A DNA stretch of 64,000 bases from Marinobacterium aestuarii (GTDB taxonomy: Bacteria > Pseudomonadota > Gammaproteobacteria > Pseudomonadales > Balneatricaceae). Location: positions 1,364,001 through 1,428,000 of the forward strand of contig NZ_CP015839.1 in assembly GCF_001651805.1 (NCBI RefSeq), in the 5' to 3' direction. The notes beneath the pieces were generated by a model. It was not told the origin of the DNA and ran no database searches. It saw only the letters and a program-made list of their open reading frames with translations. The translations under genes and the position numbers were made by a program. How positions within the stretch are numbered: position 1 is the first letter of the stretch; the number at the start of each line of letters is the position of its first letter. Below, in pieces: positions 8,052 to 9,927 of the stretch.

Positions 8052-9206
8052 ATGGGTTATCGCTTCCCGGAACAACCGATTCTGTTCTATCCCTCCCTGG
8101 CAAGGCGCATCGGCAGTGATGAGGCCTTGCTGCTGGCCATTTATCACGACCGGGCTCGCAATGGCGGGCGTGCCGAGCCCTCTGAACTGGTGCTGAGCCG
8201 TGCTCATTGGCTGAAAATCGCCGACTTCTGGGATGAGGACTACCTGCGCAGTATCACCGAGAGTCTGGTGCGCCAGGGCTGTATCCTGGCCTCGGTCGAC
8301 AGTGCACTGGTGCGGCTCAGCCTGGAGCCCCAGGACCGTCCCCAATCAGCCGAGGGTGCTATTGAGGCTGATGAGTCAGTCGATTCTGTCGCCGCCAGGG
8401 CTGCAACGGCCGCGCCTGTTACCGAGAAAACTAAGGCGGCAGGGCTGGCGGATGTAGACTCTGTGCATGGCGGGCATTCTGAGGAACAGACCCCGTCGCA
8501 GTGGCCTGAGTCTGCGCCGCAATACGCGCCAGTACCCACAGCGCGGCCCCATCGTCATCCTGATCCGGCGCGACGCTGGGATCTTCCTGCTCAAACTACT
8601 GAGCCGGTAAAAGAGCAGGTTGCAGAATCCTATGCCGAGCGGTATCCAGAGCCGAGTCGCCAGACCCCGCCCCGCCCCCAGGCTGATGCGCTCAGTCGGC
8701 TGGCTGTACACGATACGCCGCCCCGCCCGTTGACGCGCCAGGCGTTGCGCGCGACGCCGCAAACCATTCAGGCGCGCGGGCCTGCGCCAACCTTTGGCGG
8801 TGCCAGTGGCTGGCGGCGGCACAAGGATGAACTGCAGGTGCTGTTCGAGCAGCATGAAGAACGCAATCAGCAGCTTAAACCCATGCAGCTCGGCTGGCAG
8901 CCCTCGGAAACCTTCTTTGCGCTGCTGCCAAGGCACAATATTACTGTTGAGTACGCCGAGGGTCTGCTGGATGAGTTTGTGCTCTACTGGCTCGACAAGG
9001 ACCGCAAGGAAACCAACTGGGATCAAAAATTTCTCGCCTGGGTGAAACGGGAATGGGTACGCAAGCAAACCCGTGATGGCCGGGATTCCGGCGCCGACAA
9101 AGAGCGACAGACAGGTTTTAAAAATGAAAACACCCGCCGAGATACTCGGGAAAAACGCAAACAGGTTACCGCAGCAATCATGGACATCCGCGACACCGAC
9201 TGGTAA
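8052..9206 (+). CDS. DnaT-like primosomal / phage-O-like replication protein
   Basis: A 384-residue three-part protein. Residues 1-92 look folded and could be a winged-helix module like the N-terminus of phage replication proteins (inference). Residues 95-260 are a Pro/Ala/Gln-rich, low-complexity linker. Residues 278-338 match the DnaT DNA-binding domain: MQLGWQPSETFFALL, then EFVLYWLDKDRKETNWDQKF and LAWVKREW. DnaT acts with PriA/PriB/DnaC to reload DnaB at stalled forks. The next gene resembles lambda P, a DnaB loader, and overlaps this one by 83 bases. Together they look like a domesticated phage-type helicase-loading pair. The tail after residue 340 is highly basic. Confidence 0.75.
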   Translation: MGYRFPEQPILFYPSLARRIGSDEALLLAIYHDRARNGGRAEPSELVLSRAHWLKIADFWDEDYLRSITESLVRQGCILASVDSALVRLSLEPQDRPQSAEGAIEADESVDSVAARAATAAPVTEKTKAAGLADVDSVHGGHSEEQTPSQWPESAPQYAPVPTARPHRHPDPARRWDLPAQTTEPVKEQVAESYAERYPEPSRQTPPRPQADALSRLAVHDTPPRPLTRQALRATPQTIQARGPAPTFGGASGWRRHKDELQVLFEQHEERNQQLKPMQLGWQPSETFFALLPRHNITVEYAEGLLDEFVLYWLDKDRKETNWDQKFLAWVKREWVRKQTRDGRDSGADKERQTGFKNENTRRDTREKRKQVTAAIMDIRDTDW

Positions 9207-9927
9207 TCGCGGCGCCGGTGAGAAGGATGCGGGGCCTTTGCCGCTGGAAACCAAGGCGCTGGTGAACATGCTGTTTGCGCGCTTTATGGCGATCTATGGC
9301 CACAAGTTCAAGAGCTGCTTTGAAACCCAGGATGAGATCCGCATCGCCAAGCGCGAGTGGGCCTTGAGCCTGCGGGGGTACGGCGAGCGCGAACTGGTGT
9401 CGGCTATCGACCACTGCAAGGAGCAGCTGGCCTGGATGCCCACCATCTCGGAATTTCTCAAGATTCTGCACGAGCAGGAAGGGAATTTCGGTCTGCCCGG
9501 CGTGTTGCGGGCCTACGAGGAGGCGTGCATGCATGCCGATCGTCCGACGCGGCACCCGTGGTCCCATCCGGCGGTCTATCAGGCCGGGCGTGCGACCGGC
9601 TGGTTTCGGCTGCGTTCCGAAGAGCAGCGCCGGGTACTGCCCGATTTTCGCTACAACTACGAGGTGATGTCGCGCCGGGTACGCGAGGGTGAAGACCTGA
9701 GCGTGGCGGTGGCGGTGGGTCTGCCCGATGGACGCAGCAATACGCTGGTGGCCTTTATTCAGCGCTGGGGCGAGGAGCAGGAACTGGCACCTGAGGTGGC
9801 CGCGTCACTGCTGTACTACCTCACCAAGCCCAAGGGCTCGCGCGTACGAGACCTGTACCGTGATGCGTCCGAGAAGAAGGTGCAGCAGCTGGGCCTTAGC
9901 CTCGAGCTGCCGCTGGATTACCAGTAA
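9124..9927 (+). CDS. Lambda P-like replication protein (candidate helicase loader)
   Basis: A protein of about 267 residues whose central part resembles the replication protein P family. The key stretch is LFARFMAIYGHKFKSCFE, then EIRIAKREWALSLRGYGERE and WMPTISEFLKI, comparable to the lambda P region that binds the DnaB helicase. No Walker A motif is seen, so it is not a DnaC-type AAA+ protein. In-frame starts exist at GTG 9073 and ATG 9076; ATG 9124 has a short ACAGG site and is chosen tentatively. All of them lie inside the end of the DnaT-like gene, so translation is probably coupled. The C-terminal half is alpha-helical and unassigned. Confidence 0.7.
   Translation: MKTPAEILGKNANRLPQQSWTSATPTGNRGAGEKDAGPLPLETKALVNMLFARFMAIYGHKFKSCFETQDEIRIAKREWALSLRGYGERELVSAIDHCKEQLAWMPTISEFLKILHEQEGNFGLPGVLRAYEEACMHADRPTRHPWSHPAVYQAGRATGWFRLRSEEQRRVLPDFRYNYEVMSRRVREGEDLSVAVAVGLPDGRSNTLVAFIQRWGEEQELAPEVAASLLYYLTKPKGSRVRDLYRDASEKKVQQLGLSLELPLDYQ

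Follow-up and report, generated by a model that had tools for sequence, protein, structure and literature searches.

Two overlapping genes on the forward strand of the window, a 64,000-nucleotide stretch of the Marinobacterium aestuarii chromosome, were found to form a pair of the DopC/DopE type. The reading preferred here, with a probability of about 0.8, is that dopC-dopE is a phage replication module (a DnaT-class O-type protein, then a P-type loader) that was turned into the replicative-helicase loader of the host and replaced DciA. The pair is real, chromosomal and conserved, and that it is the helicase loader of its lineage is very probable. Established here are its domain content and homology and the overlap of the two genes, as well as its vertical conservation, a distribution complementary to that of DciA, and constraint on the C-terminal tail of DopC. 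The loading of DnaB onto DNA is a need of every bacterium, and DopC/DopE has been proposed as a third way of achieving it, next to DciA and DnaC/I. The pair is reportedly a chromosomal derivative of lambda O/P in Gammaproteobacteria lacking dciA and dnaC/I, and DopC in that account is said to derive from lambda O. The idea was already proposed in 2017 and is thus not new (Brezellec et al. 2017, GBE, doi 10.1093/gbe/evx111, as cited in PMC13326638 and PMC9912922), and a 2016 paper had listed the Cellvibrionales and three Oceanospirillales species as lacking both dciA and dnaC/I (PMC5109545). New here are an independent test of the exclusion, covering about 200 genomes, the position of the true dopE start with the resulting overlap, the DnaT identity of DopC with its variation in copy number, and a docking hypothesis. 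No experiments on DopC or DopE were found in the literature searched; Marinobacterium, which is cultivable and has a complete genome, offers a convenient test bed.

Domain Content of DopC and DopE

The features of the pair are as follows.

8052..9206, forward strand: dopC, 384 aa; Pfam DnaT match (E = 1.7e-23), AlphaFold model, kept in relatives
8079..8327, forward strand: N-terminal winged-helix-like domain of DopC, aa ~10-92, predicted order H-H-E-H-H-E-E
8880..9074, forward strand: DnaT domain of DopC, single copy, aa 277-341; PF17948, 82.6 bits
9124..9206, forward strand: dopC/dopE overlap, 83 bases read in two frames, giving the DopC tail ...VTAAIMDIRDTDW and the DopE start MKTPAEILGKNANRLPQQSWTSATPTG
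9192..9203, forward strand: codons of the DopC C-terminal DTDW, proposed DopE-docking tail ([DN]xxW motif, likeness to lambda O)
9124..9927, forward strand: dopE, 267 aa, putative lambda P-type helicase loader by Pfam, PHROG 109, PDB profile and Foldseek
9256..9702, forward strand: DopE core homologous to lambda P, matching positions 1-160 of the 162 in the PF06992 profile
9703..9924, forward strand: C-terminal helical extension of DopE, from the alignment of relatives and AlphaFold (helices 206-255 at high confidence)

DopC consists of an N-terminal winged-helix-like domain, a disordered linker, a DnaT domain and a C-terminal D-T-D-W tail. The initial annotation had recognised a C-terminal DnaT-type domain in the first protein, correctly, and had named DnaT_2 as the model to be searched; the model matched was instead PF17948, the DnaT DNA-binding domain (82.6 bits against a cut-off of 25), which is also matched by E. 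coli DnaT. In the AlphaFold model the DnaT domain is helical, with pLDDT values of 93-96 over the cores of both domains and below 50 across most of the linker. The best Foldseek matches of DopC were initiator N-terminal domains (4pt7, 4pql and 5kbj), which were weak (E = 0.013 and above), and a profile search against PDB sequences gave no match. The Phage_rep_O model PF04492 did not match DopC at E values up to 1, whereas it does match lambda O; thus, what DopC has in common with lambda O is its position, its inferred role and its tail, and not the Phage_rep_O domain. A search of the whole genome found no DnaT domain other than that of DopC.

The number of DnaT domains was observed to vary, from one in Nitrincolaceae to three, and once four, in tandem in the DopC of many other families (L036, L013, L006, L031 and L035). 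DnaT reportedly assembles into trimers and filaments on single-stranded DNA, and the tandem forms may represent covalent oligomers. Short DopC proteins of about 150-180 aa, with the DnaT domain and the tail and without the N-terminal winged helix, were also observed at five loci (L028, L033, L139, L141 and L147), each beside a normal DopE.

The resemblance of the second gene to phage replication protein P, noted initially for its centre, was borne out by both profile and fold. DopE matched nearly the whole of the Phage_lambda_P model PF06992 (E = 1.2e-11, 45.1 bits against a cut-off of 26) as well as PHROG 109, the P-like helicase loader (E = 4.1e-25), and a DopE sequence profile run against the PDB returned lambda P first (E = 2.4e-4). 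Similarly, the AlphaFold model of DopE (mean pLDDT 84.7) found lambda P bound to E. coli DnaB (9oa1, E = 1.7e-4) as its sole Foldseek matches below E = 0.001, with low TM-scores (0.31-0.39) and large rmsd values, as would be expected of an elongated multi-part chain whose parts are differently placed. DopE is 99% identical to its counterpart in Marinobacterium profundum and 96% to that in M. rhizophilum; going by the names of these nearest records, the window belongs to Marinobacterium in the family Nitrincolaceae. Additionally, 3 to 10 DopE-like genes per genome were seen in one family, f217 (G437, G471, G498, G525 and G549; genomes of 5.8-6.9 Mb), where at least some of the extra copies have no dopC neighbour and lie near phage P in the tree.

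Exclusion of DciA and the Inventory of Loaders

The genome of M. aestuarii (5.19 Mb, one contig) was searched for the known loaders and restart proteins, as the initial annotation had advised for dciA, dnaC, priB and priC, and none of the four was found. The search for DciA gave no match, nor did that for PriC, and no protein scored above the cut-off for PriB, the highest match (22 bits) being at the level of SSB; PriA is present. Among the genomes searched, PriB scores above the cut-off were confined to two genomes with DciA (G051 and G056), with a weaker score in a third genome with DciA (G053). The search for DnaC yielded only IstB of the insertion sequence IS21 and DnaA. The AAA+ proteins of IstB type were rejected as DnaC candidates, being four near-identical IS21 copies (at 1278728, 2706217, 3700919 and 5151005 of contig C1), with IstA adjoining the one examined, together with DnaA.

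The replacement of DciA by DopC/DopE in this lineage is supported by an almost complete lack of overlap between the two. Within a set of 57 relatives, 49 carry a DnaT-domain gene and exactly the other 8 carry DciA (Fisher P = 6e-10, not corrected for kinship); nine of the genomes with the DnaT gene were missed by the Pfam lambda P model, and a search with a relative placed a P-like gene beside dopC in all nine. Loss of dopE, suspected in the five family members without a Pfam lambda P match (G010, G015, G019, G023 and G030), was rejected in the same way, all five having the gene. Across 156 genomes of the order, DopE was found in 97, DciA in 49, both in 2 and neither in 12 (Fisher P = 5e-26, again uncorrected for kinship), counts in which absence depends on the sensitivity of the profiles and DciA is fast-evolving. 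The DopE matches in the two genomes with both loaders (G460 and G542) are weak and prophage-like (E = 6e-24 and 8e-10), whereas matches elsewhere in the order reach about 1e-43 or better, one split-contig case apart. Sampling across the class added 19 genomes with a P-like match, 11 of which also have DciA, as is expected for prophages. This near-perfect exclusion across the order strengthens the DopC/DopE proposal. Of the initial suggestion that the pair acts alongside or instead of DciA or DnaC, the second alternative therefore stands and the first does not, neither protein being present in the genome itself.

The same inventory bears on two other roles. The pair might serve only restart, acting like DnaT at stalled forks while an unrecognised loader initiates at oriC, and the presence of the genome's sole DnaT domain in DopC, with PriB and PriC missing and PriA present, fits this role. 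It is DciA, however, that the pair complements in its distribution, and DciA acts in initiation and not at forks alone; in phage initiation, moreover, DnaB is loaded by lambda P. Together these points make a purely restart-bound module unlikely. A share in restart, also suggested initially, is consistent with the same observations and may belong to the function of the pair. Alternatively, DopE might block or regulate DnaB, in phage defence or in the control of initiation, with loading carried out by DnaB itself or by an unknown factor; lambda P by itself is toxic and sequesters DnaB (PMC3640518, PMC4926192). Against such a blocker, DopE is near-universal, mostly single-copy and exclusive of DciA, which argues for a housekeeping substitute and not an accessory inhibitor and renders the blocking role quite improbable.

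Outside the order, four genomes of 1.2-3.2 Mb with no detectable DciA, namely G231 (L042/L133), G338 (L043/L134), G059 (L047) and G102 (L046), have a DopC with several DnaT domains and a Trp-containing tail as well as a DopE-like gene, indicating a possible wider spread of the system.

Genomic Context, Inheritance and Origin

The neighbours of dopC and dopE are ordinary chromosomal genes, encoding a flavodoxin, a nitroreductase, an AlkB-type oxygenase, a CBS-pair protein, a DUF3549 protein and a Na/H-exchanger/TrkA protein, and no phage-like gene was found among the flanking genes, in agreement with the initial annotation. Of 80 named loci, 60 have the CBS gene upstream and 56 the DUF3549 gene downstream, and the order CBS-dopC-dopE-DUF3549 is kept in most of Nitrincolaceae, a family in which all 36 genomes sampled carry the pair. 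A scan of IMG/VR for close relatives returned no viral relative of the pair, and the phage P proteins retrieved with the DopE of the window are 22-31% identical to it.

A tree built from 52 P-type proteins split the chromosomal DopE into two clades with support of 100/98 and 99/96, both apart from the phage P proteins sampled; several of the phage rows are long-branched, leaving the position of DopE relative to the phages unsure. The first clade comprises Nitrincolaceae and two other families and carries the C-terminal extension, which is missing from most of the second; the latter holds the remaining chromosomal DopE, including those of G231 and G338, two of the small genomes from beyond the order. 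The grouping of all chromosomal DopE in one clade was not rejected (p-AU = 0.585), so that a single domestication suffices and two independent ones are not required.

In the phages VW-6S, phiV10 and Tyrion, a P gene follows that of a DnaT-domain protein with a Trp in its tail, and this architecture indicates that the ancestor of dopC-dopE was most likely a phage module of the DnaT-P kind. The occurrence of this architecture in VW-6S and phiV10 might also suggest that the pair is itself a prophage replication module, remnant or resident, with no host role. Such a status of the present genes is scarcely credible given their presence in 36/36 family genomes, the conserved chromosomal synteny, the absence of flanking phage genes, the lack of a close viral relative in IMG/VR and the separation of the chromosomal clades from the phage P proteins sampled; a prophage remnant was ruled out on the flanks, the synteny, the family-wide presence and the IMG/VR result. 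Neither a surrounding prophage nor frequent loss in relatives, findings that would have spoken against the initial annotation, was seen, and its view of the genes as a domesticated lambda O/P-type pair is upheld by these results together with the exclusion of DciA.

The Overlap and the C-Terminal Tail of DopC

The coordinates, the strand and the 83-base overlap (9124-9206) given initially proved correct. The longest form of the second open reading frame starts at a GTG at 9073; in an alignment of 32 relatives the conserved start is the ATG at 9124 (MKTPAEIL...), which sets the overlap with dopC at exactly 83 bases. The same length was found at 73 Nitrincolaceae loci, and most of the order's other families have an overlap of about 74-104 bases. 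The tail of DopC is encoded inside this overlap; 102 distinct tails were compared, from within the order and outside it, and 101 of them end in [DN]-x-x-W.

The constraint on the overlap was assessed from changes per opportunity in 26 independent sequence pairs. Substitutions silent in DopC and altering DopE (31/1910) were 2.3 times as frequent per opportunity as the reverse (15/2126; P = 0.007), and those that alter both proteins formed the rarest class, indicating that both frames are constrained and that of DopC more so, by about 2.3-fold. In Aliamphritea (L108 and L111) the overlap has been lost, DopC still ends in VTAAIMDIKDTDW and the start of DopE has diverged, which suggests, from this one lineage, that the constraints on the tail and on the DopE start are separable.

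A related end is found in lambda O, which terminates in ...DLTNTDWIYGVDL (...NTDWIYGVDL), with similar ends in the proteins of HK225 and SEN34. Phage O proteins encoded beside a P gene often have a related Trp-containing tail (e.g., DTSW, DRGW or DDDW); in this small survey, the Trp was wholly absent in 2 of 18 P-adjacent O proteins, other P-adjacent tails were divergent, and 3/3 O proteins without an adjacent loader had no tail Trp. When IMG/VR was scanned with lambda O and with a loader-less phage O, only near-identical sequences came back, not usable as a diverse sample of tails. In lambda, the region of O that binds P is C-terminal and the part of P that binds O is N-terminal (cited in PMC6022878), and the amber mutant Oam205, in which O stops after residue 294 and loses only the YGVDL behind the Trp, gave no plaques on a non-suppressing host (PMC6022878).

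A second type of tail was also observed: E. coli DnaT (L151:979-1518) ends in SQIPPGFRG, and the O protein of phage PhiR29_2 (L160:1006-1947), which has no adjacent loader, ends in SQIPAGFRG. Ends of this IPxGFRG type might address the host DnaC.

The motif similarity of this short peptide suggests that the [DN]-x-x-W tail of DopC may dock DopE-DnaB. A broader proposal is offered tentatively, at somewhat under even odds, in which the tail would be a portable loader-docking peptide common to DopC and lambda O, encoded in the overlap so that the interface of adaptor and loader is co-inherited. The type of tail would then pick the loader, W for P and possibly the IPxGFRG of E. coli DnaT and loader-less phage O for the host DnaC, with DopC serving both oriC and restarted forks. 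This would turn the vague statement that DopC assists DopE into a test of one residue, and may bear on the recruitment of DnaB-DnaC by E. coli DnaT, the mechanism of which has been stated as unknown (PMC13377028).

Proposed Mechanism

In the preferred reading, that of a host helicase loader, homology and fold suggest that DopE, like lambda P, would grip DnaB and keep its ring open. DopC would be the adaptor that positions DopE, its N-terminal winged helix and DnaT domain binding DNA and single-stranded DNA and its C-terminal D-T-x-W tail, a relative of the lambda O terminus, presumably docking DopE-DnaB. Delivery would take place at an oriC opened by DnaA and at forks marked by PriA. Chaperones are needed for the removal of lambda P from DnaB.

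Comparison with Known Systems

Compared with the O-P module of lambda, the pair has the same gene order, a DopE whose profile and fold show homology to P, and a tail of DTDW against the NTDW of O; it differs in the DnaT domain of DopC in place of Phage_rep_O, in the overlap of 83 bases against 4 in lambda and in its chromosomal location. The DnaT-DnaC operon of E. coli likewise places a DnaT domain (PF17948) before a loader gene, but the loader DopE is of P type and not AAA+, the DopC tail is DTDW and not IPPGFRG, and PriB, the partner of E. coli DnaT, is absent. The phage modules with a DnaT-type O and a P (Pseudomonas phage VW-6S, phiV10 and Enterobacter phage Tyrion) resemble the pair in the DnaT domain, the tail Trp and the adjacent P, whereas their genes overlap by a few bases only and their P proteins lie outside the tree sample. 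DciA has the same inferred role and, by mutual exclusion, occupies the same genomic niche, but is unrelated to DopC/DopE in sequence and fold. The closest likeness is to the DopC/DopE type itself, with which the pair of the window agrees in its chromosomal lambda P homologue, its upstream and overlapping O-type partner and its genome without dciA and dnaC/I.
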